From Liolophura sinensis (lineage: Eukaryota > Mollusca > Polyplacophora > Chitonida > Chitonidae): a stretch of DNA of 64,000 nucleotides. The first letter of the stretch is position 1. Each line of letters begins with the position of its first letter. The translations under genes were made by a program, and so were the position numbers. The notes under the pieces were generated by a model, which was given only the letters and a program-made list of their open reading frames with translations, ran no database searches and was not told where the DNA came from. This document shows, piece by piece, positions 11,096 to 48,318 of the stretch. The stretch covers positions 1 to 64,000 of the forward strand of contig NW_027017964.1 of the NCBI RefSeq assembly GCF_032854445.1, given 5' to 3'.

Positions 11096-11690
11096 CCACA
11101 CCTTACGTACACCTACATTACAAAAGCCTACACCTCAAGTACAACTGCATAATAATGGCCTACATAATAAGTGCACCTACATTAAAATTGCTTACACCTA
11201 TGCCTATACATAAAATGCATCTACAATACAATGGCCTACACCTCAAGTGCACCTACGTTATAGTACCCCACACCTCATGTACATCTACATTACAATGACC
11301 TATGCCTAATGCACCATCGTTACAATGGCCTACACCTCAAGTACAACTACATTACAATGACCAGCACCTCAATTGCACCTACATTACAATACCCTACAGC
11401 TCATGTACACCTATATTACAATGACCAGCACCTCAACTGCACCTGCATTACAATACCCTTCACCTCATGTAGATCTGCATTACAATTCCCTATGCCTCAA
11501 GTGTGCCTACATTACAACAACATAACCTCCTGTACATCTGCATAGCAATCACCTACACCTCAAGCACACCTACATCTCAAGTACACCTACACCTCAAGCA
11601 CGCCTACACCTCAAGCACACCTACATCTCAAGCGCACGTACACCTCAAGCACACCTACACCTCAAGCACACCTACATCTCAAGTACCATG
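11096..11690 (+). repeat. 32-bp minisatellite, forward orientation arm
   Basis: Forward copies of 'cctacacctcaagtacacct' plus 'acattacaatga'. Near 11,570-11,690 it collapses to a short subrepeat of 'acctcaagcacacctac'. With the preceding arm it forms a long imperfect inverted repeat inside an intron of gene A. Confidence 0.9.
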
Positions 11691-11865
11691 GCAATCGCAA
11701 TCAACTTTCAGTACTCCTCAAGTACACTTACAATACCATGACCTGCACCTCATGCTAGCTCCTGCAAAACTCCATCACAGTGATCTACAAGTAATTAGAC
11801 ATCACAGTGATCTACAAGTAATTAGACAAGCATAAACACTGTATGTAATCTGTATAGAGACTAAC

Positions 11866-12021
11866 CTGAAGCACTGTTGTCTACTAAGGGCACATCTTGT
11901 GAAGAGGTTATATCTGGAGCCCTCATGGAGTGACTTTGTGACACCTTCATGGGGTTAACATTTGGGGTCATCTGTGGTGTACTATGTGGCCTCTTGCTGT
12001 AGTTATCTTTCCTTACATCCC
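11866..12021 (-). CDS. Gene A internal exon E4
   Basis: 156-nt exon, phase 1-1, bounded on the minus strand by 'ggttacag' (acceptor) and 'gttagtctc' (donor). The peptide includes HSTPQMTPNVNPMKVSQS and DITSSQDVPLVDNSAS and is polar and Ser/Thr/Pro-rich, typical of a disordered linker. It is one of four copies of the same exon: E3 at 14,115-14,255, and their counterparts at 43,033-43,185 and 45,275-45,415. All four remain open although they differ by 3-bp multiples, which argues for real coding. No known domain is recognised. Confidence 0.75.
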
Positions 12022-12148
12022 CTGTAACCATGCCAACACACAACATATGACACTAATAACTACAATATTTCATTTATAAGAGGTTTATAAAACACTGCCG
12101 ATCCACATTTAGTCAAAATCGTTGAAGAATAAATACGGACACTGGAAT

Positions 12149-12355
12149 CAATTCCACAAAGCCATTTCTGAAGTCAAAATTTAAAATGCGATCTTACAGC
12201 TTATTTTTTGGCTTTAGAAATTAAAATTTTGTCCACCATATCTATGTTTCCTTAAGGCAAATGTGTCTATATTTCAACTTCCAGTACCCAAAACTGGGCA
12301 CTGTGAAGAGGTTTTTAAATTTTGACTTAAGTCACAAACAACTTTGCAGAATCGG
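12149..12355. mobile_element. MITE-like element with long imperfect inverted ends
   Basis: The left end 'caattccacaaagccatttc' followed by 'gaagtcaaaatttaaaa' is mirrored by a right end whose reverse complement begins 'ccgattctgcaaagttgt' and continues 'gacttaagtcaaaattt'. About 207 bp long with no coding capacity. Three more copies lie beside the other E3/E4 exons. Target duplications were not resolved. Confidence 0.6.
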
Positions 12356-12419
12356 CCCTAGAGAAGTGCTCAAAGGGAAGCTCTGTGCAGACTGAAAACT
12401 GAAACTTTCTAATTTAGTA

Positions 12420-13379
12420 ACACCTAAGCACACCTATCTTAAAATGGCATAAACCTCAAGTACAATGACATTTACCTATAGTGCATTTACACCGCAACGG
12501 CCTACACCTCAATTCCCCTACATCACCAAGTACATTACAATAGCAACACCTAAAGTGCACATACATTACAATGGCCTACACCTCAACCATGCCTGCTTAA
12601 CAATAGTCTACACCTGAAGTACATCTACATGCCAATGACCTACACATCAAGTACACCTAAATTACAATACACCTTTCAATAACAATGACATATATGCCTT
12701 ATCTACACTACAATCACCTACATTTCAAGTAAACCTACATTACAATAACCTACACCTCAAGCACACCTACATTACAATACACCTTTAAAATACAATGACA
12801 TACACCACACCTACACTACAATCACCTACATCTCAAGTAAACCTACATTACAATGGCCTACATCTCAAGAAAACATTCAATGCAATGACCTACACCTCAA
12901 GTGCACCTACATTACGATCACCTACACCTCAAGTGCACCTATATTACAATCACCTACACCTCAAGTGCACCTATATTACAATGACCTACACCTCATGTTT
13001 GTTGTCATATGACTGAAAAATTGTTCAGTACAATGTTAAACTATAAGCACACTTATATTACACTGACATACACGTCAAGTACACCTACATTACAATGACC
13101 TACACCTCAAGCACACCTACATTATAATGACCTACACCTCAAGTACACTTATATTACAATGACCTATATTCAACTACATCTGTATTACAATAACCTACAT
13201 TCAACTACACCTATATTGCAATGACTTACAGTTCAAGTACACTTGCATTACACTACACCTCAAGTACACATACATTACAAAGACCTACATCTGAAGTACA
13301 CCTACATTACAATGACCTACATCTCAAGCACACCTACATTACAATGACCTACATCTCAAGTGCACCCACATTACAATGA
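12420..13379 (+). repeat. 32-bp minisatellite, forward, second block
   Basis: About 28 forward copies of the 'cctacacctcaagtacacct' unit in the intron between E3 and E4 of gene A. Its last 12 bases, 'acattacaatga' (13,368-13,379), form one half of the target duplication around the SINE inserted here. Confidence 0.9.
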
Positions 13380-13642
13380 GGGGCCTCTGTGGCTCAGTCG
13401 GTTAGCGCGCTAGCGCAGCGTAGCGACCCAGAAGCCTCTCACCAATGCGGTCGCTGTGAGTTCAAGACCAGCTCATGCTGGCTTCCTCTCCGGCCGTACA
13501 TGAGAAGGTCTGCCAGCAGCCTGCGGATGGTCGTGGGTTTCCGCCGGGCTCTGCCCGGTTTCCACCCACCATAATGCTGGCCAGCGTCGTATAAGTGAAA
13601 TATTCTTGAGTACGGCATAAAACACCAATCAAAAAAAAAAAA
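13380..13642 (+). mobile_element. Full-length tRNA-headed SINE with target duplication
   Basis: The head 'gggcctctgtggctcagtcg' continues with 'gttagcgcg' (box A-like) and 'gctgtgagttcaagacc' (box B-like). The body runs 'ggtttccacccaccataatg' and 'gaaatattcttgagtacggc', ending in a poly-A tract. It is flanked on both sides by 'acattacaatga' (13,368-13,379 and 13,643-13,654). An uninterrupted array would have only one such copy here, so this is a true target duplication. Confidence 0.93.
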
Positions 13643-13740
13643 ACATTACAATGACCTCCACCTCAAGTATACTTACATTACAATTAATGACCTACACCTT
13701 AAGTGCACCTGCACTAGAATGACCTACATCTCAAGTACTA
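13643..13740 (+). repeat. 32-bp minisatellite remnant after the SINE
   Basis: Three further units of the forward 32-bp array, separated from the main block only by the SINE insertion. Confidence 0.85.
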
Positions 13741-14114
13741 TCGCAATCGCAATCAACTCTGAGTACTCCTCAAGTACACTTACAATACCATGACCAGCAC
13801 CTCACACTGGCTCCTGCAAAACTCCATCACAGTGACCTACAAGTAATTATACATTTCACTCGTGCTACACCTCAGCTACACACCCTTCTGGAAAGATACT
13901 TCAAAATTATCAGTCTGACAGTGTTATCAATCTGTGATCAAAGGATCAGTCACTTCAAGAAATTGCTACATTGTAACTATGCAGTACTGTAACTGTAACT
14001 ATGGGGAATCATAACTACCGGTATGCAAACAGTTATGTCACTGTAACTACACTGTACAACCAAAACTGTCACAGACAAGCATAAACAATGTATATAATCT
14101 GTATACAGACTAAC

Positions 14115-14255
14115 CTGCAGCACTGTTGTCTACAAAGGACACATCTTGTGAAGAGGTTATATTTGGAGCACTCATGGAGTGACTTTGTGACGACTTCATG
14201 GGGTTAACATTTGGGGTCATCTGTGGTGTACTCTTGCTGTAGATCCCTACATCCC
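14115..14255 (-). CDS. Gene A internal exon E3
   Basis: 141-nt exon, phase 1-1, with acceptor 'ggttacag' and donor 'gttagtctg' on the minus strand. It is a diverged duplicate of E4: both contain STPQMTPNVNPMK and ITSSQDV. It lies five codons shorter because a segment after the acceptor is missing, in frame. The flanks (array, exon, MITE-like element) are duplicated with it, so the exon arose by an intragenic duplication of about 2 kb. Function unknown; composition suggests a flexible linker. Confidence 0.75.
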
Positions 14256-14368
14256 CTGTAACCATGGTAACACACAACATATGACACTGATCACTACAAT
14301 ATTCAGTTTATAAGAGGTTTATAAAACAATGCCGATTCACATTTAGTCAAAATCATTGGACACTGAAA

Positions 14369-14574
14369 CCAATTCCACAAAGCCATTTCTGAAGTCAAAA
14401 TTTAAAACGCGATCTTACAGCTTATTTTTCGGCTTTAGAAATTAAAATTTTGTTCACTTCATCTATGTTTTCTTAAGGCAAATGTGTCTATACTTCAACT
14501 TCCAGTGCCCAAAACTGGGCACTGTGAAGAGGTTTTTAAATTTTGATTTAAGTCAAGAACAGGTTTGCAGAATC
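14369..14574. mobile_element. MITE-like element, second copy
   Basis: Same inverted-end structure as 12,149-12,355, in the same position relative to the duplicated exon E3. It was therefore copied with the exon and did not insert independently. Confidence 0.6.
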
Positions 14575-14639
14575 AGACGTAGTGAAGTGCTAAAGGGAAG
14601 CTCTGTGCACATTGAAAACTTAAATTTTCTGATTTAGTA

Positions 14640-15600
14640 TTTCATCATTTGTTTTCACATGGACGTGGCATTGTTACACCTTTTTGTTGCCTATGTACAT
14701 TTTCCGTAATTAGAGGAAGTCATTCATTTTGATTATGTTTAGTTTTACATAGTAGTTCCCCTTGTTTCTGACAGAAGTAAAATCTCAACGGCATTCATGT
14801 TCATCAATCCTTTGTGTTGACTAAATGGTACAGTTCGATAGATAAATTAATGACATTAACTGAAATTATGCACAGATGTTTTTTACACAGTGGTGCAAAG
14901 AATATTTGGGCCAAGAGGTAAGCTATGATAACATTATTTGAATGTGGTATTCAGTGACGGAACTGAACCCTTACCAGACACCGAATATCTAACTCTCTAG
15001 ACGTTCTTGTTTAAAATAAGTTGTCTGTAAGGTCGCCCAGCGTCTGGCTATGAATGGAAGTTGCTAATGATGTGATGTTTGCTCTAGACATATACATCAC
15101 GTTTTATTTATTGGTGGAGCTTTCAGGTTTGTTGTTGTATACTGATTTGAGTGCTGTAACACCATACCACTACTTCTTGTATTCGAAATGACGTTGGTTA
15201 TAGCCACTTTATCGCAGCCGTTCACTATGTGCTATGAACAGTGTCCAGATGGTGTGAGAAGCCACATTACACATATTAGCCAGCAATTTAGCAATATGTA
15301 ATATGACGTTGGCGTCTTTTATTGGTACAGGTTTTATCCTATAGTTTGAATTAGGTTATTGTCAGAAATAGGGACACCGTGTAATGCGAAACTATAGTAG
15401 CTGTTAGCTAAGTTACAAGCTGTATGTTGATAGTAACAATGGCTTTGTTAGGATAACTGTTTATATACACGAAGCGGTATTTTGTGGTATGTTTTTGTGT
15501 TATCTCAGTTATCAGTAATCATTGTTCATGCATTTCTTTGTACTGTTAAATGTATTACTTTGTGTTCTATGTACCAGTAGTTAGTAGTATGTTGTGCTAA
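14640..15600. other. Intron of gene A, no feature recognised
   Basis: AT-rich single-copy-looking sequence between E3 and the 2.5-kb duplication. The matching stretch in copy B (45,795-46,756) contains a 101-codon open frame that is broken by a TAG here, so it is not taken as coding. Confidence 0.6.
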
Positions 15601-16203
15601 CATGTATAATTTCACCCAATTTGAGTGTGTTATAACTCGCTTAAGATATTAGCTGGTAAACCACGCTGTTTAACCACCTTGTTATGACATACATGTCGTA
15701 CGTAAATTGAACGCAGATTTCATCCAACTATTTTGTGGCACTAGTTCTGCTGTGGTTGTTTAATTGCGCATTCATATACTTGTTACACACCCAATGACAG
15801 TGAAATAACGACAGGATTGCTACGGTACGGTACTATATGAAGTCTTTGTTTCTGTTGTCAGGGGCGCTACTGTGTTTAATAACACATACCTCTGGCTAAT
15901 CATCATTGTACGGTAAAATACAGCTGCATGAAACAAACTTTACAAGTGTTCGTGAATTCCATCCTCAAGTTAGTGATCACATCCTACATGTACCTTCTGG
16001 CAGTTTTTATAAAGAGCTTCTCCAGTTCAAAGATGTGTACGTTTTAAAGGCAGGATTGATTAATAAGGATCCACAGTAGTATGAATGACTTCATAAATTG
16101 TAAAAAAAGAACTGCACTGTATTCATTAAAACAGTTGTTGTAAGTCTGGGATGATAGTATGGAAACAAAAGTCTTCTGTCGTTTCCAATTTGCCAGGTAA
16201 GTG

Positions 16204-16231
16204 TGACGTCATAAGAGAACACCTGACGTCA
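16204..16231. promoter_or_regulatory. Two CRE-like palindromes, 20 bp apart
   Basis: The palindrome TGACGTCA is present at 16,204-16,211 and 16,224-16,231 in an intron of gene A. The copy at 47,360-47,387 keeps both. The copy at 18,687-18,714 keeps the first and has CGACGTCA for the second. TGACGTCA is the classical ATF/CREB site. Use as an enhancer is inference only. Confidence 0.4.
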
Positions 16232-16651
16232 CCCATTGCTGATGTTTCAACTTTATCCACAAATGACGCCATACTTTTAAACACAGATGACTGCTTTTAA
16301 ATACAATTGTATCTGTCTGATTCGTTGTCAGAAGAATTTTACAGTAAATGAAGATGATTTCATATAGCATCACTCTTCCTGATATGGTTTAAATCGTGTT
16401 ATTCTTTATTAATCCTATTGAGCCCTGGTGTTAGCTCTGCTCTGTAGGACATCCTTCATGTCATTTTAATATTTCCCCCTCATTTATCTTGGGATTGAAG
16501 TAGCACTTCATGAATAACTTGTCACGATATTTTGTCATTGTTCACCTATCTGACTAGCAGTATTCAATGTCAGTTCAATATGCATGGACACCTAGGCCAG
16601 TACGTGACACGTATTACACCGGCACACCTTACTGGAGGAAGACATGTCTAG

Positions 16652-16793
16652 GCTATTTATTTATTTACCTGTATTTATTTGATTGGAGTATTTCCCTTAT
16701 ACAGTGGCAACCAGCATTATGGTGGGAGCAAACCGAGCAGAGTGCTTGGTAACAAAAACCTAGCACACTAATCACTATGCCATGGAGGTCCCC
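16652..16793 (-). mobile_element. SINE-like element with tRNA-like head
   Basis: On the minus strand it starts 'ggggacctccatggcatagt', continues 'cccaccataatgctggttgc' and ends in an AAATAAAT tail. It is shorter than the main family, with part of the body missing. Copies are at 19,135-19,276 and 47,809-47,949. Confidence 0.75.
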
Positions 16794-16989
16794 TGATGGG
16801 CTTTATGTTAAAGGTTTATGTGTACCTACATACAGACTAGAACCAGGCTTATTTACATGTACAAAATACCATCTGAACTGAGAGAGAAATCTTAATAGTT
16901 TCTGCTGAAGAAATGCTTGGTGACTCTGGTCACTATAACCAGCCTAATTAACCATAAGTTACACAAATGTAAATATATAAAGTACTTAC

Positions 16990-17130
16990 CCATAGAGGTA
17001 TTTTGGCCGGGTGAGAAGTGTTGGGGAATAACAGAGCGCTGTGTGTTGTCAATGCAAGAAATCGGGTGCCTTAATGAAGATCCACTATGAAAAGCTTCGG
17101 CAGAGTTATTTGCCCCTGAACCTGCAACTC
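16990..17130 (-). CDS. Gene A internal exon E2b
   Basis: 141-nt exon, phase 1-1, with minus-strand acceptor 'acattgttgcag' and donor 'gtaagtact', a near-consensus donor. The peptide includes VAGSGANNSAEAFHSGSS and VIPQHFSPGQNTSM and is small-residue and polar-rich. The gene B copy (48,152-48,292) has the same length, and seven nucleotide differences change five residues. In gene A this exon is present twice because of the 2.5-kb duplication. No domain is recognised. Confidence 0.75.
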
Positions 17131-17156
17131 CTGCAACAATGTATTGACACATCTAC

Positions 17157-17294
17157 ATTTGACTGGAGTTTTACACCGTCTCAGGAATGTTTCACTTTAA
17201 TATACGACAGTGGTCAGCATTATGGTGGGAGAAAACGATGGGCAGAGCCCGAGGGAAACCCACAACCATCCGCAGGTTGCTGGCAAAACCTCCC
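17157..17294 (-). mobile_element. SINE fragment, central part
   Basis: On the minus strand it reads 'gccagcaacctgcggatg' to 'cccaccataatgctgacc' and 'aaacattcctgag', i.e. body and tail of the main SINE family without the head. Duplicated at 19,617-19,755 and 48,319-48,456. Confidence 0.8.
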
Positions 17295-17617
17295 AATGAA
17301 ACTCACAAAAGAGATGATATAATAATAGGTAGATATATACTTGTGTTTCCATGGTGATGTATGTGTATGCAATTAAATGTAGGTCTACTGAGATTTCAGT
17401 CATACAGGATGATGGTTTTCATATAAAAACTTAGATACTCTATTGAGTTAGTTTACTGGGTAAAACTGTTCCTTGAAAAATACATCATGTGTCCCTACAG
17501 AAAACTCTTTCAATATATGTAGATAACAGTAGAATCATCATTAGGAATTACACTTTCTGAATATAGCAGAGAATTCTAGTGCTGAAAATTGGCTGAGATA
17601 TACACTGTATGCTGCAT

Positions 17618-17705
17618 GGTTTTGAACCGTTGACCTCAGAGTCAGGCACAAAATTGTCAACCCTACATGTCAACTGTTTAGACCACTTGACCAACAGGCT
17701 GCCCA
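17618..17705 (-). mobile_element. tRNA-like SINE head, Leu/Ser type
   Basis: The minus strand shows 'tggtcaagtggtctaaac' (box A-like), an extra variable-arm-like stretch, and 'gaggtcaacggttcaaaacc' (box B-like). Acceptor-stem pairing is poor and no CCA context is visible, so it is a pseudogene or SINE head and not a working tRNA. Copies at 20,080-20,166 and 48,783-48,868. Confidence 0.5.
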
Positions 17706-17750
17706 GAAAAATAGAAGGAAGTAGATGTATGTAGACTTTACGGCTAACAT

Positions 17751-17878
17751 GCATTACCCCCCTGATGATCAGAAATGAGACAGCTCCCTCAGTTCAATTC
17801 AAATGACATCAAAACCAGTCTGATATATTCACCTGAGAGAAATGTGTCATTTCTGATCATCAGAGAGGTAATTAATGC
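17751..17878. mobile_element. Foldback element with 17-bp perfect arms
   Basis: 'ctgatgatcagaaatga' (17,762-17,778) is perfectly inverted at 17,847-17,863, and the symmetry extends imperfectly outward through 'gcattacc' and 'ggtaat'. The whole 128 bp would form a long hairpin. Copies at 20,213-20,340 and 48,913-49,040. Confidence 0.6.
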
Positions 17879-18686
17879 AGCTTCGCCATCAAGTCTACCT
17901 GTCAACTACTATTTTTCACATAGTTGAAAAACCAGCAGTAAATTTCAGTGTCACTTAACTGGTTATTGACAGGCATTGCTTGTGGCTACTTGTTTACCTG
18001 ACTATGACTCATGATCTGACTCACGAACTTTTCACTTAAACAATATTGGCCAGTTCAAAGAGGAAACTGAAACGTCTGGAATAACATGTATAATTTCACC
18101 CAATTTGAATGTGTTATAACTCGCTTAAGATACTAGCTGGTAAACCGCGCTGTTTAACCGCCTTGGTATGACACACACGTCGTACGTAAATTGAACGCAG
18201 ATTTCATCCAACTATTTTGTGGCACTAGTTCTGCTGTGGTTGTTTAATTGCGCATTCATATACTTGTTACACACCCAATGATAGTGAAATAACGACAGGA
18301 TTGCTACGGTACGGTACTATATGAAGTCTTTGTTTCTGTTGTCAGGGGTGCTACTGTGTTTAATAACACATACCTCTGGCTAATCATCATTGTACGGTAA
18401 AATACTGCTGCATAAAACAAATTTTACAAGTGTTCTTGATTCCATCCTCAAGTTAGTGATCACATCCTACATGTACCTTCTGGCAGTTTTTATAAAGAGC
18501 TTCTCCAGTTCAAGGATGTGTACGTTTTAAAGGCAGGATTGATTAATAAGGATCCACAGTAGTATGAATGACTTCATAAATTGTAAAAAAAGAACTGCAC
18601 TGTATTCATTAAAACAGTTGTTGTAAGTCTGGGATGATAGTATGGAAACAAAAGTCTTCTGTCGTTTCCAATTTGCCAGGTACGTG

Positions 18687-18714
18687 TGACGTCATATGAG
18701 AACACCCGACGTCA
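18687..18714. promoter_or_regulatory. CRE-like pair, one site degraded
   Basis: Duplicate of 16,204-16,231. The first TGACGTCA is intact and the second reads CGACGTCA. Confidence 0.3.
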
Positions 18715-19134
18715 CCCATTGCTGATGTTTCTACTATATCCACAAATGACGCCATACTTTCAAACACAGATGAGTGCTTTTAAATACAATTGTATCTGTC
18801 TGCTTCATTGTCAGAAGAATTTTACAGTAAATGAAGATGATTTCATATAGCATCACTCTTCCTGATATGGTTTAAATCGTGTTATTCTTTATTAATCCTA
18901 TTGAGCCCTGGTGTTAGCGCTGCTCTGTAGGACATCCTTCATGCCATTTTAATATTTCCCCCTCATTTATCTTGGGATTGAAGTAGCACTTCATGAATAA
19001 CTTGTCACGATATTTTGTCCTTGTTCACCTATCTGACTAGCAGTATTCAATGTCAGTTCAATATGCATGGACACCTAGGCCAGTACGTGACACGTATTAC
19101 ACTGGCACACCTTACTGGAGGAAGACATGTCTAG

Positions 19135-19276
19135 GCTATTTATTTATTTACCTGTATTTATTTGATTGGAGTATTTCCCTTATACAGTGGCAACCAGCAT
19201 TATGGTGGGAGCAAACCGAGCAGAGTGCTTGGTAACAAAAACCTAGCACACTAATCACTATGCCATGGAGGTCCCC
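19135..19276 (-). mobile_element. SINE-like element, duplicate of 16,652-16,793
   Basis: Near-identical copy carried by the 2.5-kb tandem duplication. Confidence 0.75.
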
Positions 19277-19472
19277 TGATGGGCTTTATGTTAAAGGTTT
19301 ATGTGTACCTACATACAGACTAGAACCAGGCTTATTTACATGTACAAAATACCATCTGAACTGAGAGAGAAATCTTAATAGTTTCTGCTGAAGAAATGCT
19401 TGGTGACTCTGGTCACTATAACCAGCCTAATTAACCATAAGTTACACAAATGTACATATATAAAGTACTTAC

Positions 19473-19586
19473 CCATAGAGGTATTTTGGCCGGGTGAGAA
19501 GTGCTGTGTGTTGTCAATGCAAGAAATCGAGTGCCTTAATGAAGATCCACTATGAAAAGCTTCGGCAGAGTTATTTGCCCCTGATC
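19473..19586 (-). CDS. Gene A internal exon E2a, shortened
   Basis: Duplicate of E2b with an 18-bp in-frame deletion (VIPQ region) and a 5-bp deletion that removes the original acceptor. The next AG on the minus strand, 'gagttgcag' followed by 'gatcagg', lies exactly nine bases into the ancestral exon and keeps phase 1. The exon would then be 114 nt, phase 1-1, three codons shorter at the start and six in the middle. The donor 'gtaagtact' is unchanged. Whether this acceptor is used needs transcripts, but frame is kept despite two independent lesions. Confidence 0.6.
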
Positions 19587-19616
19587 CTGCAACTCACAAT
19601 GTATTGACACATCTAC

Positions 19617-19755
19617 ATTTGACTGGAGTTTTACACCGTCTCAGGAATGTTTCACTTTAATATACGACAGTGGTCAGCATTATGGTGGGAGAAAACGATG
19701 GGCAGAGCCCGAGGGAAACCCACAACCATCCGCAGGTTCCTGGCAAAACCTCCCA
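19617..19755 (-). mobile_element. SINE fragment, duplicate of 17,157-17,294
   Basis: Near-identical copy within tandem unit 2. Confidence 0.8.
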
Positions 19756-20079
19756 ATAAAACTCACAAAAGAGATGATATAATTATATGTAGATATATAC
19801 TTGTGTTTCCATGGTGATGTATGTGTATGCAATTAAATGTAGGTCTACTGAGATTTCAGTCATACAGGATGATGGTTTTCATATAAAAACTTAGATACTC
19901 TATCGAGTTAGTTTACTGGGTAAAACTGTTCCTTGAAAAATACATCATGTGTCCCTACAGAAAACTCTTTCAATATATGTAGATAACAGTAGAATCATTG
20001 TTAGGAATTACACTTTCTGAATATAGCAGAGAATTCTAGTGCTGAAAATTGGCTGAGACACACACTGTATGCTGCATGG

Positions 20080-20166
20080 TTTTGAACCGTTGACCTCAGG
20101 GTCAGGCACAAAATCGTCAACCATACATGTCAACTGTTTAGACCACTTGACCAACAGGCTGCCCAG
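20080..20166 (-). mobile_element. tRNA-like SINE head, duplicate
   Basis: Same element as 17,618-17,705, in tandem unit 2. Confidence 0.5.
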
Positions 20167-20212
20167 AAAAATAGAAGGAAATTGACATGTATGTAGACTT
20201 TACGGCTAACAT

Positions 20213-20340
20213 GGATTACCCCCCTGATGATCAGAAATGAGACAGCTCCCTCAGTTCAATTCAAATGACATCAAAACCAGTCTGATATATTCACCTGAGA
20301 GAAATGTGTCATTTCTGATCATCAGAGAGTTAATTAATGC
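20213..20340. mobile_element. Foldback element, duplicate
   Basis: Same 17-bp arms as 17,751-17,878. Changes in the outer arm are not compensated on the other side. Confidence 0.55.
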
Positions 20341-21100
20341 AGCTTCGCCATCAAGTCTACCTGTCAACTACTATTTTTCACATAGTTGAAAAACCAGCAG
20401 TAAATTTCAGTGTCACTTAACTGGTTATTGACAGGCATTGCTTGTGGCTACTTGTTTACCTGACTATGACTCATGATCTGACTCACGAACTTTTCACTTA
20501 AACAATATTGGCCAGTTCAAAGAGGAAACTGAAACGTCTGGAATAAACCACCAACCTTTGGCAAGTTTAAACTGGTGAACTTTCTCATGTGTCACTCAAG
20601 TCGTTTAATTATATTGGTGAAAGGCTAGCAGTTTATGGCAAAACTTCATGTATGACCACACAAGAGAGTGCTGTTCACTGCTTCATGACATAGATTAAGT
20701 CTCTCAGAAAAATGGTAGCACTGCAATTTTGAAAATTCTTTGTCCAAGGATTTGATTGCACTCATTTCTCTGGTCACATAGTGACCTAAAAAGAGTGACC
20801 CACCATATTGCTTTTAAAGATGTCATTTAAGTAGAAAGGCTCTACGATATTTATTTCTTTCTTTGGTTTCTGTTTCACATCATACTCAGGAATTTTTCAT
20901 TTACAATGTACACAATGGTGGTTGTGTTTCATGATAGAGAAAACCACAGACCTTTGGCAAGTAACTGAGAAACTTTCCCACAGATTGTGATGATTGCAGA
21001 TATGCACACCATACTGATGGAAGACAAGTGGCCATTCATGAGCGTTAGACTGCCCAAACTTGTGTTGATCACGTTCACGCACGTCCTTGTTAATTATTAC

Positions 21101-21533
21101 CTTGCTGTGAAAGCTGGTTCAAATGTGACTGTGGTTTTGGTGGGTCATCCAGCTCTTGCTGCTCTCTGTGGTTACCCTGGTTACCAGGATTGTCACTGTT
21201 ATTAAAAATATTCTCATAGTCCTTCTTAAATCTTTGAGGAACACGATCATAAATTTGTTTTGCTAAAATTTGTACATCGCAATCATGCACCACTTTCACG
21301 AACTTTATAAAGGCATCCGGGTACAATCGTAACAGCACGTTCACCAGTTCTCGTGTCCCTTCAATGTTACCTTCTTGTATACATCTTCGTTCAATACGTT
21401 GGCTATCCTCAATAGGAATTGCATTCCTCATGTAAGGTAGAATTTTCCTGGGCGCAATTTTGGGCTGAATTTCAGCCTGCATGTCACGCAGTATAATTTC
21501 ATGATAATGTAGCCCATCATGAACCATCTTCAT
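21101..21533 (-). CDS. Gene A CARD exon
   Basis: 433-nt exon on the minus strand. The acceptor 'tcatttttcag' lies directly before ATG, and the donor is 'gtaataatt', ending in phase 1. Only phase 0 is open at the acceptor, so ATG is either the start codon after a 5' UTR intron or is reached from a phase-0 exon. Residues about 8-98 match the CARD pattern of six amphipathic helices: an RDMQAEI helix, 'DSQRIERRC', 'TRELVNVLLRLYPDAFIKFV' and 'QILAKQIYDRVP'. Residues 100-144 are a polar Asn/Gln linker. CARDs act by homotypic stacking in apoptosis and innate immune signalling; the partner here is unknown. Compared with the gene B exon, 19 base changes replace 15 residues, several at sites where gene B and exon C agree (D to N, G to V, A to T, A to V, R to P), so this copy looks derived. 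Confidence 0.85.
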
Positions 21534-21584
21534 CTGAAAAATGACAAAATAATTTTATCAACTGACTCCTGATCCAATGATGAC

Positions 21585-22440
21585 TAATGAACCTAGTGAC
21601 GACAGCGATGACTGAGCTACAAATTGATGGCTGAACTACATAGTGATGGCTGAACTACGTAGTGACGACAGCGATGAATGAGCTACAAATTAATGGCTGA
21701 ACTACATAGTGATGGCTGAACTATGTAGTGACAACAGCGATGAAAGAGCTACAAATTAATGGCTGAACTACATAGTGATGGCTTACCTACGCACGACAGC
21801 GATGACTGAGCTACAAATTAATAGCTGAACTACATAGTGATGGCTGAACTACGTAGTGATGACAGCAATGACTGAGCTACAAATTAATGGCTGAACTACA
21901 TAGTGATGACTGAACTACGTAGTGATGACAAAACTACATGTGATGACTGAAGTACAGAGTGATGTCTGAATTACAGTAATGACTGAACTACATAGTGATG
22001 ACATTGATGACTAAGCTACAAATTATTGGCTAAACTACATAGTGATGGCTGAACTACACAGTGATGACAAAACTACATGTAGTGGTGACTGAAGTAAAGA
22101 GTGATGACTGAATTACAGAGTGATGACTGAGCTTCATAGAACTGTAAAATGACTGCATGGACTATAAACTGATGACTGAACTAAATAATTATTGGCGGTT
22201 GAAATATGTAAAATGAGGGCTGAACTACACCGTGATTACTGGCTTATATAATGGTACTTGGACTACATAGTGATGACTGGCCTATATAATGGTAATTGGA
22301 CTACATGGTTATGACTGGCCTATATAATAGTAACTGGACTACATAGTGATGACTGGCCTATATAATGGTAATTGGACTACATAGTGATGACTGGCCTATA
22401 TAATGATAATTGGATGATTAAACAACATAATGATGACAAA
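21585..22440. repeat. Degenerate short repeats of 'ctgaactacatagtgatg'
   Basis: Imperfect repeats of about 19 bp, partly organised in a period of about 60-65 bp ('gcgatgactgagctacaaat'), in the DNA upstream of the gene A CARD exon. From 22,240 a subvariant 'ggactacatagtgatgactg' repeats. The same block is at 50,207-51,030. Confidence 0.85.
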
Positions 22441-22469
22441 CCTACAATGTGACTGTAAGGACAGGCCTG

Positions 22470-24390
22470 CATAAAGAAGACTGAACTACACACATGTAGT
22501 TATGACTTAGGCCTGTATGTAACCACATAATGCTGATGTCTACACTACATACAATGATGACTAAACTACACACAAGTAGTTATGACTTAGGCCTGTATGT
22601 AACCACATAATGCTGATGTCTACACTACATACAGTGATGACTAAACTACACACATGTAGTTATTACTTAGGCCTATATGTAACCACATAATGCTGATGCC
22701 TACACTACATACAGTGATGACTAAACTACACACATGTAGTTATGACTTAAGCCTATATGTAACCACATAATGCTGATGTCTACACTACATACAGTGATGA
22801 CTGAACTACAAATGTAGTTATGACTTAGGCCTGTATGTAACCATATAAGGCTGATGTCTACACTACATACAGTGATGACTGAACTACACACATGTAGTTA
22901 TGACTTAAGCCTATATGTAACCACATAATGCTGATGCCTACACTACATACAGTGATGACTGAACTACACACATGTAGTTATGACTTAGGCCTGTACGTAA
23001 CCACATAATGCTGATGTCTACACTACATACAGTGATGACTGAACTACACACATGTAGTTATGACTTAGGCCTGTACGTAACCACATAATGCTGATGTCTA
23101 CACTACATACAGTAATGACTAAACTACACACAAGTCGTTATGACTTAGGCCTGTATGTAACCACATAATGCTGATGTCTACACTACATACAGTGATGACT
23201 AAACTACACACATGTAGTTATGACTTAGGCCTGTATGTAACCACATAATGCTGATGTCTACACTACATACAGTGATGACTAAACTATACACATGTAGTTA
23301 TGACTTAGGCCTGTATGTAATCACATAATGCTGATGTCTACACTACATACAGTGATGACTAAACTACACACATGTAGTTTTGACTTAGGCCTGTATGTAA
23401 CCATATAATGCTGATGTCTACACTACATACAGTGATCAATGAACTACAAATGTAGTTATGGCTTAGGCATATATGTAACCATATAATGCGGATGTCTACA
23501 CTACATACAGTGATGACTGAACTACACACATGTAGTTATGACTTAGGCCTGTGTGTAACCATATAATGCTGATGTCTACACTACACACAGTGATGACTGA
23601 ACTACACACATGCAGTTATGACTTAGGCCTGTATGTAACCATATAATGCTGATGTCTACACTACATACAGTGATGACTGAACTACACACATGTAGTTATG
23701 ACTTAGGCCTGTATGTAACCACATAATGCTGATGTCTACCCTACATACAGTGATGACTGAACTACACACATGTAGTTATGACTTAGGCCTGTATGTAACC
23801 ACATAATGCTGATGTCTACCCTACATACAGTGATGACTGAACTACACACATGTAGTTATGACTTAGGCCTATATGTAACCACATAATGCTGATGTCCACC
23901 CTACATACAGTGATGACTAAACTACACACATGTAGTTATGACTTAGGCCTGTACGTAATCACATAATGCTGATGTCTACCCTACATACAGTGATGACTAA
24001 AGTACACACATGTGGTTATGACTTAGGCCTGTATGTAATCACATAATGCTGATGTCTACCCTACATACAGTGATGACTAAACTACACACATGTGGTTATG
24101 ACTTAGGCCTGTATGTAACCACATAATGCTGATGTCTACACTATATACAGTGATGACTGAACTACACACAAATAGTTATGACTTAGGCCTGTATGTAACC
24201 ACATAATGCTGATGTCTACACTACATACAGTGATGACTGAACTACACACATGTAGTTATGACTTAGGCCTATATGTAACCACATAATGCTGATGTCTACA
24301 CTACATACAATGATGACTGAACTACACACATGTAGTTATGACTTTGGCCTATATGTAACCACATAATGCTGATGTCTACACTACACACAG
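22470..24390. repeat. 80-bp tandem array
   Basis: About 23 copies with a regular 80-bp period. Landmarks are 'cacatgtagttatgacttag', 'gcctgtatgtaaccacataa' and 'tgctgatgtctacactacat'. Similarity between units is high, with a few changes each. It differs from copy B (51,060-52,728) in copy number and order of variants. Confidence 0.95.
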
Positions 24391-24494
24391 TACATGTAGC
24401 TGGTACATGTAGCTGGTACATGTAGCTGGTACATGTAGCTGGTACATGCAGCTGGTACATGTAGCTGGTACATGTAGCTGGTACATGTAGCTGG
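24391..24494. repeat. 13-bp array, 8 units
   Basis: Exactly eight units of 'tacatgtagctgg', adjoining the 80-bp array. Copy B has fourteen units at the same spot. Confidence 0.97.
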
Positions 24495-25785
24495 CAACCA
24501 CCTTCTAATGAACCTTGCTGTGGTTCTCGTCTAGTTCATATATTTCATTTTTCTGGTGCTTTATATTTAATAAGAATACATGTAGTCTACAAACCAATAA
24601 AACCTTAAAATATTTCCAACATCCGCCATGTTTTGAATTCTGCCTTCCGCCAGTCCCCGCAAGGTACATGCTAAGTTCAACTTGCTCGATTCAGATGTTT
24701 AAACGACTGGTATTACTGTGAAAAAATGACTTGCTGGGTTCGAGATGTGATGTTTAGTGGAAATGTCTGTGTGGTGCTAAATAAGACAGATGCTGGGTAG
24801 AGTCCTACTTGATACCTCCTTTGCTCTGATATTTTGACGTCACTATACAATATTTGGGTGCCTACATTTACTGTTTATGGAGTACCGGTAGTGCCAGAAT
24901 TCTGCCACCTCGCACCTCTTGCACCTATCGTTTCTCTTCTACAAAAGCACAAATTTCCACAAATATAAGTTCTAACCTTTCGGCAGCCACGCATTTATTC
25001 CTCAGCAGCCAATCGGTCTTGAGGGTTATCGCTGATTCCCCCCACATTACATGTGGGTGACTATCATCACGTCACAGCTATATCATTGCACCCGTTTTCA
25101 CAGTTTTACCTTCTCGTGGTAGGGTGATTCGTTCATCTGCCTGATAAGAATTCTGACAAATACATGTTCAGTGCTCAATTTACGCAGCCTTCTGGTAGGT
25201 TATACCACGACTATATAAGAATGTGGTGGTTCCAACAATTATTGTGACAGTTTACCAGTAACCTACGTATTTTACTTATTGTTATACTTACTCACTAGGA
25301 AAAATATGGTGAAAACGATCGTGAGAGTCTCACATGTAAATGATGTAGATGTCTGGGTAGACGTACATCGTGTGCTAATCAGTTAGTATAGAGTACATCG
25401 CAGATTACATTTCCAGAAACAAACCTCATACTTTCCAAGCGGCACTCGTGTATCTTTGACAGAAGTCACCAGTTGTGAAAAATGTCTTTACTTCCGATGA
25501 GTTGCGCAAGTCAGCTGTCAAAACATGGTGACGTAAATCCTCGGCCCAAGTTACTTTCGTTTTCGATCACGTTAATATGTGTGGAAGAGTTGTCTCCCCT
25601 GATCTCCATCTGATAATAAATTTGACTTTTTGGGATTATTTTTATTATTTTTTCTTTCTTTTATTATTTTTTTAAGGTTAATTCTACATTTCAACAAATC
25701 CTGTACGTCAAGACTCTATAAATGTACTAGAGCTACATTATAAGACATCATATCGGAAGTGTTGTCACTTCTGTGCGCAGTCTTA
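24495..25785. other. Upstream flank of gene A, no exon recognised
   Basis: Near-identical to 52,911-54,197 and therefore the common 5' flank of genes A and B if their promoters lie here. It contains a T-rich tract at about 25,640-25,675 and a CRE-like 'ttgacgtcac' at about 24,834. No TATA box or first exon could be fixed. Confidence 0.5.
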
Positions 25786-26534
25786 CCACCATGAGCAGTG
25801 AAATACTACCTCTCGTCAATTTACTCAGTTAAGATTTTATTCAAAGCCTATTTGAGATCAGCAAAAACGGGCCATGTTGACTTGAGGGTTGTATATAGTA
25901 ACACACACAAATATTCCGCACGGCAAAGACAAAGGTCCTCGTTGGCTAAATTGTCTATAGCGCAGGTTTCGTCGCATGCACCCAATCTGCCCTGACCAAT
26001 GGAGTGGAGGGATCGAAACAAGCTGTGGCTTCTACAGGACTTGTTGGTTTGAAGTGAATTGGTTCAGGTTATTCCAATAAACCTGACTGCCGTTCTAAAT
26101 ATGCTCGGAGTACAGCGATAAAACAAATGAAACCAATTATTATATAAATTCTGACACATATATACATGCATTCTGGTACAATCCACACACGACACATGCC
26201 TTACCAATTCACACTGAAACGACTTCGGATTTTTAACACAATGGCTGTTATCAGAGTAATAGAATATGTGTGCTATCTTTCAAATAAAAATGTGTTGCAA
26301 GATAACAACAGAATACATTGATTTTAACATCACCTAGACAACAGGACTTTCGGTTCAAATTGCAAGGCCATGTTTTTGTGACATAGGCCTGTAGCAGGTG
26401 ACTCGTTTTGATGTACAGATGATTCATTTTAATTGATTGTATATGAATCACTGCGATGTACATATGATAGGGCTCACGGTGATACAAGATTTATGGGGAC
26501 CTGTCAAACGCCGGGTAACAGGATGTTATTTTAA
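25786..26534. other. Unique DNA, nothing recognised
   Basis: Begins exactly where homology with copy B stops. Small open frames here have no splice context, repeats or similarity to the other exons. Confidence 0.5.
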
Positions 26535-26576
26535 TGACGTCAAATGTTCCTTTCCCTGCTCATCGTGATGACGTCA
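26535..26576. promoter_or_regulatory. Two CRE-like palindromes near CARD exon C
   Basis: TGACGTCA at 26,535-26,542 and 26,569-26,576, about 200 bp beyond the donor of CARD exon C, so intronic or downstream on its strand. The same type of pair occurs in the introns of genes A and B. Function is inferred from the motif only. Confidence 0.35.
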
Positions 26577-26771
26577 CATTAAAAACAGAACGACTTTAGA
26601 ATAGAAACTGATAGTTGTAACATTGTATACGCTACGCTACAATCCATTTTTGACACAACAATGGCTCGAAGCTCTGCTTCACACAAACGCCACCTCACAG
26701 GACTTAAAAATATGCCGCCACCCACAAAGCGACTTCAAAAGAAGCTGATATACAGATATGAAAGCTCTCAC

Positions 26772-27189
26772 CCATTGAGGGTTCACCCCTCCTCGATGGC
26801 TGTTCCTCCACGCCCCTTGGGTCCGATGCTTCATCGGTGAGCTCTGCAGATTCATCTTGAATTCCCGGGAAAATATGCGAGAATTTCCCCTTAAATCTGC
26901 TCGGTACACGTCCATACAGTTCTTGCGCTAATATCTGTCCACTGGAACTAGCTTTTACCACGGCCTCTACAAACCTGACAAAGGTGTCTGGGTATGACCT
27001 CAGGAGCACATCCACGAGTTTCCTGGCGCCCTCGATGTCGCCATCCTGTAGGCAGCTCTGTGTGATGCGTTGACGGTCCATGTCTGATATCGAGTCTCCC
27101 ATATGGTCCAGGACAGCTCTAGGATTGATCTTCTTTTGGATTTCATATCGATTATTCTTTATTATACTTTCGTGAAAATGTCGACTCAT
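26772..27189 (-). CDS. CARD exon C, third family member
   Basis: On the minus strand an ATG at 27,189 opens 139 codons plus one base to the donor 'gtgagagc' (phase 1). A possible acceptor, 'attccctttaag', lies six bases before the ATG. Residues about 6-100 are CARD-like and align with genes A and B: 'EIQKKINPRAVLDHM', 'DIEGARKLVDVLLRSYPDTF', 'SSGQILAQELYGRVPSRFKG'. The tail is acidic and polar (SAELTDEASDPRG). The exon is not in the duplicated block. Its phase-1 donor fits the family's small exons but cannot join the gene A CARD exon, which is open only in phase 0. It may be an alternative first coding exon of gene A, the start of a separate gene, or an orphan. Confidence 0.8.
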
Positions 27190-27345
27190 TTTGCCCTTAA
27201 AGGGAATAAAAAAAAATTCTTTTTTTAAACTGATGTTTACAAGACGGCATCTCATATTGTTATAGTGGGTTAATCAATGGGTAAAGCTACGGTGGAAGAA
27301 AGAAACAACCTCACATCACCAGGTATGTGATACAACGCCTGGCGT

Positions 27346-27357
27346 AAAACTGAAACT
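27346..27357. promoter_or_regulatory. ISRE/IRF-like motif upstream of CARD exon C
   Basis: 'aaaactgaaact' about 160 bp before the ATG of exon C. It contains the IRF core AANNGAAA. Such short motifs occur often by chance, so this is a weak call. Confidence 0.2.
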
Positions 27358-27911
27358 GGGTTAGAACAATTATTTACGTCTATACATACGATTGTTGGTT
27401 AAGGAAAAATATGATGCTTGTTATAGCGCTCCTTGTCACTCTAAAACAAAATGGAATCTCATGTACAGACTATAGTGAATAGACATTGATAAATAAACGA
27501 GTATATAGTAGATTAATCGATGTTACTTAACAACAAACACTGAGTGTATGTAGCTCCATATTTCGCGGATACAACCGATGCGTGTATATACAAGTAGGTA
27601 GGCCTGGTTTCCTATACAGGGAAATCTTCGCCAATATACACATGCACAGTTATCGTAAACCATCACCGCTAAAAACTTATATCCTTGTATATAATAACCG
27701 AGGTGGGAAGAGACGATCTACATCTGGTGGGAAGAGATGACCTATATCTGGTGGGAAGAGATGAAGCCTACATCTAAGCTGGAGAGCACTACAGCCTACA
27801 TGTACCCCTAGCTTTCTTTCATGTACCCCAGCGTTTAGCTGGTTAGGTACTCCATTCAGAGGAGTGTCTGTGTAATTCAACTTTAAACACAAATACAGAT
27901 GTACTATATAC

Positions 27912-28230
27912 GATGGAGGCCAGCATTATGGTAGGAGGAAACAGGGGCAGAGTCCGGGGAAAACCCACGACCAGCCGCAGGTATTCTTAAAGGGAAGACC
28001 TTCTGAGCACCCTGCAGACGTGAAGTTTATAAATAAATAAATAAGTAAATAAATAAATAACCTTCCCATGTACACCACGACCATTCGCAGGTTGCTGCCA
28101 GGCCTTCCCATGTACGGCCGGAGAGGAAGCTTGTATGAGCTTGACTTAAACTTACAGCGACCGCATTGGTGAGAGGCTCCTGGGTCATTGCGCCGCGCTG
28201 GCGCGTTAACTACCTCGGGTACGGAGGCCC
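27912..28230 (-). mobile_element. SINE interrupted by a second SINE fragment
   Basis: The minus strand starts at 28,230 with the head 'gggcctccgtacccgaggta' and runs through 'gccagcgcggcgcaatgacc' and 'cttcctctccggccgtacat'. At about 28,025-28,060 an AAATAAAT tail appears, followed by another body segment ('cccataatgctggcc' type) to 27,912. A nested or tandem insertion is the simplest reading. Confidence 0.75.
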
Positions 28231-29691
28231 TCAACACGATTATTAGGCAGGACAAACTCTTTGTTTCTTACACAGCAGAACGCCATACACAGCATACTTA
28301 TCGCTTTGCCCCGAGGAAGAGCGCTGGTGAGATTTTGCGGTCATACCATGTTGACGTTACCCAGCTTCCATACATCATGCACACATGAAGATTAGAAGCT
28401 TACAAAGGTCTATCTAACTATCTGATTCATTATATACTTGTAAATATATTTTAAGACATACGCGATAAAAAGCTCAGATGTACATGTAGCTAATGCCTAG
28501 ATTAGCATGTATATAGGTCCGTGTTTCGCAGACTTTTTTTCAGTATAAACTACTGTAAACTGTATGAATTTCGAATTAAATTTTATCGTATAAATATATA
28601 CCAGGTTGTCACCTATACAGGTACATGTATATACATTGATACTACACGTAAGGGATAAAAAAAAACAGACAGGAATTCCTACAAAGATGAGAAATATACC
28701 ACGTATGTTAGATATTCGCTATTACTGGCCCGGCCTAAAACTCGGCTGCTACGGTATACCCAGGTGTGTATAAATAATAACTGCATGAAACTGGACTGCT
28801 TAATCGTGGTACTCTGAATTAGTTATGGCACCCACAATGAAAACATTCGCTCGTGTCACTTAAATGTGTGGTTTGTAGGCTGGGTACATTTGACCCATAT
28901 AACATCAACAGTTGCAATACAGGCCTAAATTAAATAGTGCCACAGAATCGATTCTGTAGCCTGTCACACAAGCACATATATTACCATTCAGTCGACAAAA
29001 TAAACCGATGTTCAACTTACACAATCGATCGGGGACAGTTCGGCAACACTTCCTTCTAAATGTGATGATGGCGGCTATATGACGTCAGGTATCGGCAGAC
29101 CAAAAGCTGCCAAATAATAATAATGTCGACCTACATGTACATTTTTTTTAAATTCGATTCCTGGATTTTACTCTTATTTGAAACATTCAAAACGCTGTTG
29201 GTATATTTAAATACTTTGGATCGATCGATTTAAATACTTTAGGAATGGTGATCACCATCTTGATTGACATCTGTTTGGATTAGACATCATGGTTCAAGAG
29301 TACTAGCTGTGTCCGTGCTCACATTTTGGGAAATTTTCAAAAAACATACATTTTGTTTCACTTTCGCATACCAGCATATATGAGTATACAGTAACATTGA
29401 TCTGTTGTCCAGAGTTATTTCCCTTTAATATATTACATAATGGTCCTTTTAAAAAAAAAATACTGCCACAATCTGATCACTTCTGTTATTTTTTGCTTCT
29501 TTTATTCGGTTCCTTTGTGCGGTAAATTATTTAAAATAACCTTTTTAAAAATTCATATTTAAGTACAGTAATATAAATGAAAATATATGACGAAGTAAGT
29601 ATAAAGGCCTTCATGTATACAGCGGCGTATGTCGGGTGTACATGTACATGTGTGTGGGCCCTACACTTTAAAAAGGATGATGGAGCATCCG
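28231..29691. other. Unique AT-rich DNA, nothing recognised
   Basis: No exon with splice context, no tandem array and no SINE was found. A TGACGTCA occurs near 29,090. Confidence 0.5.
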
Positions 29692-29958
29692 TGCAGGCCA
29701 AGGTGATTAGCGTGCCAGCGCGGCGCAATTACCCATGTAGAACCAATGTGTTCGCTGTGAATTCAAGTTCAGCTCATACTGGGATCCTCTCCCACCATAT
29801 ATAGGAAGGTCTCTCAGTAACCTGTTTACGGTCGTGAGTTTCTCCCAGGCTTTGGCCCGTTTCCTCCCAACATATAATGCTGGCTGCCGTAGTATAAGTA
29901 AAATATTCATGAGTACTGCGTAAAACACCATCCAAATAAATAAATAAATAAATAAAGT
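29692..29958 (+). mobile_element. Near full-length SINE
   Basis: A diverged head with 'gtgattagcgtgccagcgcg', the box B-like 'gctgtgaattcaagttc', the body 'gtttcctcccaacatataat' and a long AAATAAAT tail (29,936-29,957). It is more diverged than the others. Confidence 0.85.
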
Positions 29959-30371
29959 ATGAACAAAAATAAGTAGGGCTATTTACTCCATAAAATAAAC
30001 ATTGTGATGAATTCAAGCTTATTTCTTATGTCACTAAGTAAAATATTGTATTTCCATTCCATATATTATTCATTAAAGTAACAACCTAAAGAGTGATGCG
30101 AATTACCTCAATCAGATTATATGATAGGCCTACACATGCACTCAGCCGATATTTCAGTGCTTTAGATATGCCGCTTTTACGTTGGCTTTAATTTTCGTAA
30201 TTACTGTATGTCTACCTTTCAACAGGATTAAGGTAAGTTTCTTTTTCCCAAGCATAGGATTATTTATTGATTTAATTGTGATTTTAACATTATGTGTATA
30301 AATTATTGGATGTAGGCGATGAGCCTGAATATATTATAGAGAGCTGTGTGAATGTAAAGATTACTGAAATA

Positions 30372-31192
30372 ACGCTTTGCGTAAACACCTGATGACAGAG
30401 TACATAAAAGAACTGTGAGAAGGTACCGTAGTCATTTTGTAAATACCTGGTGACCGAGTACATAAAAGAACTGTGAGAAGGTACCGTAGTCATTTCGTAA
30501 ACGCCTGATGACAGAGTGCATAAAAGAACTGTGAGAAGGTACCGTAGTCATTTCGTAAAGGCCTGATGACAGAGTACATAAAAGAACTGTGAGAAGGTAC
30601 CGTAGTCATTTCGTAAACGCCTGATGACAGAGTCCATAAAAGAACTGTGAGAAGATACCGTAGTCATTTCGTAAACGCCTGATGACAGAGTGCATAAAAG
30701 AACTGTGAGAAGGTACCGTAGTCATTTCGTAAACGCCTGATGACAGAGTACATAAAAGAACTGTGAGAAGGTACCGTAGTCATTTCGTAAACGCCTGATG
30801 ACAGAGTACATAAAAGAACTGTGAGAAGGTACCGTAGTCATTTCGTAAACGCCTGATGACAGAGTACATAAAAGAACTGTGAGAAGGTACCGTAGTCATT
30901 TCGTAAACGCCTGATGACAGAGTACATAAAAGAACTGTGAGAAGGTACCGTAGTCATTTCGTAAACGCCTGATGACAGAGTACATAAAAGAACTGTGAGA
31001 AGGTACCGTAGTCATTTCGTAAACGCCTGATGACAGAGTACATAAAAGAACTGTGAGAAGGTACCGTAGTCATTTCGTAAACGCCTGATGACAGAGTGCA
31101 TAAAAGAACTGTGAGAAGGTACCGTAGTCATTTCGTAAACGCCGGATGACAGAGTACATAAAAGAACTGTGAGAAGGTACCGTAGTCATTCA
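30372..31192. repeat. 58-bp tandem array, very homogeneous
   Basis: About 14 copies with a strict 58-bp period, containing 'cgtaaacgcctgatgacaga', 'gtacataaaagaactgtgag' and 'aaggtaccgtagtcattt'. Inner units are almost identical and the first two are diverged, as expected of recent amplification from the middle. Confidence 0.97.
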
Positions 31193-31670
31193 ATAACCGA
31201 ATAATATTTACCGTACCTTAAGCACCATATGACAAAATAGTGTATATTACCTCAGCGCTCCTATATTATTAAACGATCTGTTCATTCTTTAGCGGCTTGT
31301 AACAGATAGAAACTTCTTGGGAATATATGTAGTCCTTAGTAATTGGACACGTCATTATAAAATGAAGCTTTTTTTTCAGAAACACCGCAGTGTTCGATTC
31401 TCCCAAGGGATCTTCTTAAATCTCCCTGAGTGAACGGTTAATCTAGCTGTAGCAACTCGTACCCTTGATATGTCTCGTACATACTAACTTTAACTTAAAC
31501 ACAAAATAGGTAAAGTGTAATTCAGTTCGCAAATCGGTTTTCTAAATCTCAGTAATCTTTATATCGAATACTTTCATTCAAATATCCTATAAGTTTCTGA
31601 GTGCAAGTGTCCTTGATTCATCCAAAGAGGACTCAGACTCAAGCTATAAAACTTTGACAAACGGTTAATT
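31193..31670. other. Unique DNA next to the 58-bp array
   Basis: No gene or repeat recognised. It may include more of the degraded retroelement that becomes readable at 31,671. Confidence 0.4.
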
Positions 31671-48292: not shown

Positions 48293-48318
48293 CTGCAACA
48301 ATGTATTGACACATCTAC

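Follow-up and report, generated by a model that had tools for sequence, protein, structure and literature searches.

In the red and green opsin genes, a peak of divergence is kept by selection against gene conversion, as described in the report on that system (PMC3924837). The opsins are tandem duplicates about 24 kb apart, introns of low divergence flank the exon peak that carries the functional difference, and the account could draw on known functional sites and on a comparison of species (PMC3924837). An escape from concerted evolution is likewise described for CEACAM32 of ruminants, where conversion is reported for the leader exon and the introns and as absent from the exons encoding Ig-like domains (PMC7042247). 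Between the invertebrate paralogs GOT1p1 and GOT1p2 of Tigriopus californicus, a mosaic of high and low divergence is described on the basis of population data (PMC3728101). Among tandem CARD genes, the primate CASP1-CARD16/17 locus is described as shaped by conversion and duplication, some of the caspases being under positive selection, and there the CASP1 CARD overwrites that of CARD16/17 (PMC11383037). For the wider family, reports describe tandem RLR expansions in lophotrochozoans, where the RNA-binding domain was tested for positive selection (PMC8998645), propose that RLR and IPS1 CARDs spread by tandem partial duplication (PMC4565553) and assign CARD, Death and TM domains to oyster MAVS (PMC5557890).

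Here, we compare with these systems two predicted CARD genes, A and B, of the chiton Liolophura sinensis. The window, i.e. the whole stretch of 64,000 bases that was analysed, is contig C25:1-64,000 of a 609-Mb assembly with 632 contigs, and all comparisons were made within this one assembly. Like the opsins, A and B lie tens of kb apart (28.6 kb), and high divergence is confined to a functional exon with flanks of low divergence. Unlike the opsins, the exon encodes an immune-type CARD, a single assembly is compared and the near flanks are colder than the far ones. CEACAM32 differs from A and B in belonging to another gene family, in its multi-species evidence and in its testis-specific expression (PMC7042247), and GOT1p1 and GOT1p2 differ in being transaminase genes with population data (PMC3728101). 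In contrast to the primate CASP1 locus, it is the CARD that appears to escape conversion in A and B. MAVS/IPS-1 and RIG-I share the CARD_2 profile with A and B, and the arrangement of a CARD followed by a long low-complexity region is MAVS-like, whereas the two-exon model of A and B holds neither a transmembrane-like segment nor a helicase and would represent a separate tandem family. The type of evolution is a known one and the locus is new.

Gene models and layout of the duplication

The CARD exons of A (21,101-21,533) and B (49,723-50,155) both lie on the minus strand. In each of them the ATG stands straight after a TTTTTCAG acceptor and the exon ends at a phase-1 GT donor, located at 21,100 in case of A. 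Scores against PF16739 (CARD_2, a RIG-I-type CARD) are 50.8 bits for A, 55.2 bits for B and 49 bits for a paralogous CARD exon, C (26,772-27,189, minus strand, phase-1 donor), all above the curated cut-off of 28.2 bits; C shares 56 of 107 residues with B. A second exon of gene B at 35,143-37,070 (minus strand) runs from a phase-1 acceptor to a stop codon and encodes a 641-aa acidic tail rich in Ser, Thr, Pro and Gly. It joins the B CARD exon in frame, yielding a predicted protein of 786 aa. The best explanation is that A and B are tandem-duplicate genes whose product would combine an N-terminal RIG-I-type CARD with a long low-complexity acidic tail. In the two-exon model this tail has 642-645 aa, giving the MAVS/IPS-1-like order of a CARD and a long low-complexity region. 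Within the same model, to which further exons may belong, no transmembrane segment was found in the tail (top 19-residue Kyte-Doolittle mean 0.62), and the gene B exons gave no helicase or RD match.

Structure models of the A and B CARDs are all-helical with pLDDT values of 87.2 and 87.5; models of this kind, built on a 3-sequence alignment, respond little to point changes. A Foldseek search, carried out for the B model only, placed RIG-I CARDs first, followed by Apaf-1 and MAVS (best E 3.6e-3, probability 1.00), with no match reaching 0.001. Searching the B CARD exon against 5.8 billion proteins returned no relative at E 0.001 (8 candidates), and there was no Rfam match at gathering thresholds. 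A 36-bp coding minisatellite (34,507-35,417, minus strand) contains the end of the gene B second exon and continues past the stop codon. Further along the window, a 695-aa open frame at 58,692-60,728 (minus strand) with GSTSRETAS-type repeats and an acidic Asp/Tyr tail resembles the gene B second exon by eye. It may be the second exon of the following gene, with a further paralog, E, at C25:82,836-83,198 as its CARD. We also rejected an arrangement in which one protein would carry both C and A as twin CARDs: the donor of C is in phase 1, and A read in that phase stops after a few codons, as judged by eye.

Gene A lies in unit 1 of the duplication (9,401-25,790) and gene B in unit 2 (40,713-54,201), its tandem copy. 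Within a few bases of 25,790 the right end of unit 1 meets a C-region (25,791-38,401) that contains CARD C and the gene B second exon. A 40-bp minisatellite marks the left end of both units, with 236 copies at 4-9,388, which is also the left end of the contig, and 58 copies at 38,402-40,712. A 32-bp minisatellite at 10,302-13,379 apparently occurs in both orientations within the units, as seen by eye. A second copy of the C-region is found on contig C33 (175,051-189,496); its match to C25:25,790-38,401 is broken into several pieces and begins only a few bases from the unit 1 end, and the four aligned non-repeat pieces are 1.3-3.0% different. This copy includes C', a near-copy of CARD C (C33, 176,397-176,723). 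The end of C33 and the start of C25 carry the same 40-bp minisatellite in the same orientation. The C33 repeats fail to discriminate between the two arrays of the window, the shared 40-mers (208 of 978 for array 1 and 65 of 978 for array 2) being proportional to array size.

The simplest order would be Z, C'-region (C33), minisatellite, unit A, C-region, minisatellite, unit B, Y, which a single tandem duplication of about 30 kb would produce. Gene A would then have its second exon on C33, from 188,184 to about 186,213. It is possible that C33 is instead an allele of C25, in which case the second exons, and likewise C and C', would have been compared as alleles. The main contrast is drawn within C25 and is independent of whether C33 is an allele.

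A divergence peak between cold flanks

Base-by-base comparison of 21,274-21,523 with 49,896-50,145 yields exactly 19 differences in 250 bases. This tract covers codons 4-87 of the gene A CARD (minus strand), and its differences fall in 16 codons, giving 15 residue changes, R13I, R24P, K52I and G87V among the radical ones, and one purely synonymous codon (21,399). All 19 are substitutions; there is no indel and the frame stays open. The remaining 173 coding bases of the exon (21,101-21,273) show no difference, the next 100 intronic bases show two, at 21,050 and 21,044, and the 200 bases on the other side (21,524-21,723) show none. The recount therefore reproduces the earlier note in its 19 differences, its 15 residues and lone synonymous site, and its quiet surroundings. 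The localised divergence peak in the CARD exon is real. Its cold 3' flank, comprising exon tail and intron start, extends over 20,691-21,273 (minus strand) with 4 differences in 519 aligned bases, and its cold 5' flank (21,524-21,723, minus strand) has none in 200 bases, a length read off the data because this flank ends at the next difference.

With minisatellites masked, noncoding DNA of unit 1 differs from that of unit 2 at 310 of 11,564 bases (2.7%). Relative to this overall level of the duplication, the exon, at 7.3%, is hot and the near flanks are cold. Taken together, the near flanks (4/719) have fewer differences than noncoding DNA elsewhere in the units (P 2e-5), for flank limits set post hoc. 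In window and permutation tests, again with masked minisatellites, 19 in 250 is a joint maximum: a second, noncoding window at 9,623-9,875, right of the 40-bp minisatellite, also has 19 differences from unit 2, and for this reason the hot window alone is only modestly rare. Its P value is 0.029 by uniform permutation and, in an overdispersed estimate multiplied by 46 windows, about 0.13. Long identical runs are not rare by themselves either, the longest in the unit measuring 235 bases (P 0.38).

Chance is the least probable of the explanations that we considered. It would have uneven mutation along the duplication peak at the exon by accident, and the second window as well as the overdispersed counts (variance 11.2, mean 6.7) are in its favour. 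However, a hot window combined with two empty 200-base flanks occurred in 0 of 5000 uniform permutations and remained rare when blocks were shuffled (0.0014-0.0026 with 50-base block shuffling, 0.0006 with a block bootstrap), and the peak coincides with the CARD.

Flanks colder than the duplication average point to gene conversion as the other half of an explanation. Signs of exchange between copies are found close by, in a 2.5-kb segment which is a tandem repeat in unit 1 (15,598-20,546; copy 1a at 15,598-18,084, copy 1b at 18,082-20,546) and single in unit 2 (copy 2 at 46,754-49,246). At the 83 variable sites of these three copies, ancestry switches 39 times compared with 52.9 expected (P 0.001), and the longest runs by site type are 12 (P 0.001), 8 (P 0.009) and 2 (P 0.95). 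Mosaic ancestry is thereby shown for copies located 0.6-5.5 kb from exon A. We infer that the mosaic reflects gene conversion, including its direction; unequal crossing-over would give similar mosaics.

The second exons are in agreement with homogenisation. Comparing the inferred second exon of A with that of B, 13 of 1914 aligned coding bases differ (0.7%; pN 0.0066, pS 0.0073), far fewer than the 19 of 261 of the CARD (P 1.4e-10) and also fewer than the noncoding rate predicts (P 2e-9). Two in-frame length differences lie in repeats, and both exons are open (644 and 641 residues). Being colder than noncoding DNA with pN about equal to pS, the second exon fits homogenisation and not purifying selection. 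Genome searches returned two second exons of the A/B type and two CARD exons of the A/B type. The sister pair C and C', used as a control, differs at 4 of 252 CARD positions compared with 19 of 261 for A and B (P 0.002). The duplication thus appears to carry its own controls, namely a diverging CARD pair, a C/C' pair that has remained similar and near-identical second exons. Divergence from C33 is unusually low over 32,932-37,500, an interval which spans the second exon and beyond and in which the repeat part, 34,430-35,420, was left unaligned.

Proposed selection on the CARD and competing origins of the tract

We judge it somewhat better than an even chance that the copies are homogenised by gene conversion and that selection, acting mainly on A, maintains or increases the distance between their CARDs. 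Under this reading, a tandem duplication of roughly 30 kb would have yielded A and B, and conversion between the copies would then have homogenised the exon tail, the near intron and the second exon. The CARD would have stayed or become different as amino-acid differences were favoured, mainly on A and most of all in helix 2. The likely outcome would be proteins with the same tails whose CARDs have different binding partners or assemble differently. If confirmed, this would be a natural adaptor pair differing almost only in the CARD, and a direct reading of the residues that determine CARD-CARD specificity would become possible.

For the selection step, the pattern of changes offers support, not proof. 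For codons 1-87 the Nei-Gojobori method counts 58.7 synonymous and 202.3 nonsynonymous sites (S, N) with 2 and 17 differences (Sd, Nd), i.e. dS 0.035 and dN 0.089. The resulting dN/dS of 2.55, in which dS rests on 2 changes, is not significant (Fisher P 0.15), and in simulations of 19 random changes an Sd of at most 2 had a P of 0.066 and at least 15 residue changes a P of 0.26. Assuming that the exon and its surroundings are of equal age, nonsynonymous divergence (17/202) is about 3x the noncoding rate of the duplication (Fisher P 4.8e-5, overdispersed P 0.0016), and synonymous divergence is at par with it (P 0.67). Diversifying selection, one of the options listed in the earlier note, is backed by the comparison with noncoding DNA but not by dN/dS within the exon. 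A point against the main reading is that the second exon, in which pN and pS are nearly equal, has no contrast in the kind of change.

Helix 2 (residues 28-35), a region chosen post hoc, has half of its 8 residues changed and holds 4 of all 15 changes, where random placement gives a mean of 1.3 (P 0.023). There is a weak, non-significant tendency to spare conserved positions (3 of 33 invariant compared with 12 of 54 variable positions, P 0.15; 0.084 by simulation), and neither the relation of the changes to positions at which B equals C (P 0.37) nor their mean BLOSUM score (P 0.67) is unusual. An enrichment of charge changes (P 0.16) was discarded, as was a tendency of the changes to lie within 3 bases of each other (6 pairs compared with a random mean of 3.8, P 0.14).

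The earlier note had proposed that gene A is the copy that changed, and this holds for 6 of the 8 residues for which C, C' and E, taken as outgroups, bear on the direction. Change in A is favoured at residues 13, 37, 56, 60, 81 and 87, and at all of these except 13 B agrees with C. At residue 29 change in B is favoured, and residue 24 is ambiguous; 7 of the 15 cannot be polarised with these outgroups. Distant CARDs on contigs C6 and C10 have the A state at residue 33 (Pro in 2 of 4) and at residue 60 (Thr in 3 of 4), which makes the polarity of residue 60 less sure, and the B state at several others.

An unlikely alternative is that the A tract was copied by conversion from a third CARD paralog, now lost or unassembled, so that its divergence is old and mostly neutral or ordinary. 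A length of 250 bases is typical of conversion tracts, and both this length and the sharp edges of the A tract fit such an event, as do the mosaic copies found at this locus. In the CARD, synonymous changes are more frequent than in the near flanks (P 0.043). This is expected if the CARD escaped the conversions that reset the flanks or if it came from elsewhere, and the tract may simply be older than its flanks. Pro at residue 24 of A is shared with paralog E, Arg at residue 29 with C and C', and P33 and T60 are present in distant CARD_2 proteins. On the other hand, synonymous divergence equals the background of the duplication. The assembly was searched for a CARD exon matching the gene A variants, as the earlier note had suggested, and only the A and B exons were found. 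The 10 matches of the A exon DNA in the 609-Mb assembly are A, B and 8 short minisatellite matches adjoining them. A CARD_2 profile search of the genome gave at least 10 exons, namely A, B, C, C', E, three on C6, one on C10 and one on C7. Of the 8 besides A and B, all 7 compared (the C7 exon, L036, was left out) score higher against B than against A. The unseen donor raised by the earlier note is thus not visible among these sequences. Conversion of A by C in particular was rejected, B being nearer to C than A is (56 and 52 of 107 residues, respectively). The three C6 exons (L027, L028, L029) form a cluster at 33.31-33.36 Mb of a large contig and possibly belong to RIG-I-like genes.

Somewhat less probable still is an assembly or haplotype artefact, in which A or its flanks would be mosaics of alleles or mis-polished. 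C25 (323 kb) and C33 (191 kb) are small next to contigs of over 30 Mb and share a terminal minisatellite, and their difference of 1.3-3.0% is similar to that between A and B, so that allelic sequence could be involved. Against this, which the earlier note had also listed, stand 19 substitutions free of indels in an open frame, the fit of A to the CARD profile and the fact that no third sequence was found to mix in; paralog E was found once, and CARD exons and second exons of the A/B type twice each. The open frame alone is weak evidence, as it was retained in 20,000 of 42,618 random draws. Profile fit was assessed with random mutants of B without stops, each carrying 19 base changes and exactly 15 residue changes in codons 4-87. 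In this test A scored 50.9 bits and B 55.4 bits on PF16739, and A was matched by 0 of 18 mutants (28.8-47.7 bits) and by 1 of 36, i.e. 1 of 54 in total; A has 13 changes inside the scored domain compared with about 14 expected in the mutants, which slightly favours A. The same result bears on relaxed constraint, a very unlikely reading in which the A CARD has been decaying since the duplication. Several of the changes are radical, A scores 4.5 bits lower than B and most polarised changes fall on A, all of which would suit decay. Neutral decay, however, predicts about 2.7% divergence, compared with 7.3% in the exon; the frame and the splice sites are preserved, and the A CARD outscores 53 of 54 random mutants.

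Possible resemblance of the gene A CARD to MAVS

A more specific form of the reading with selection and conversion, which we regard as quite improbable, is that the A CARD is currently switching partners. In a brief burst, changes concentrated around helix 2 would have shifted helices 2-6 from a RIG-I-like surface towards a MAVS-like one, with conversion keeping the rest near B, resulting in two adaptors with one tail and two heads of different wiring. The comparison behind it is post hoc and without decoy CARDs, and its E-values are weak: in a PDB search with helices 2-6 of A, six MAVS sequences were found at E 0.29-0.39 and no RIG-I up to E 10, while the first match was the unrelated BCH1 (E 0.28) and other unrelated proteins stood between and below the MAVS entries. 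Helices 2-6 of B instead found RIG-I (E 0.002-0.13) and no MAVS. With the whole CARD of A the best match is RIG-I (E 2.3e-4), MAVS following at 0.22-0.47, and the whole B CARD gave no MAVS up to E 10.

In local alignments against MAVS, A scores 61, B 41, C and C' 29, E 26 and two of the C6 CARDs 44 and 48; against RIG-I CARD2, A scores 76, above its own MAVS score, and B 87. Among 4000 random mutants, 0.05% reach the MAVS score of A and 2.1% its MAVS-minus-RIG-I margin. Part of the gain of A results from the change of ILSQM to ILPYM, close to ILPYL of MAVS, the longer stretch being KILPYM in A, EILPYL in MAVS and QILSQM in B. In human MAVS, the mutations Y30A and E26A or E26R are reported to abolish activity (PMC3932521). 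In the alignment of helices 2-6, these two sites, Y30 and E26, align with Y34 and K30 of A.
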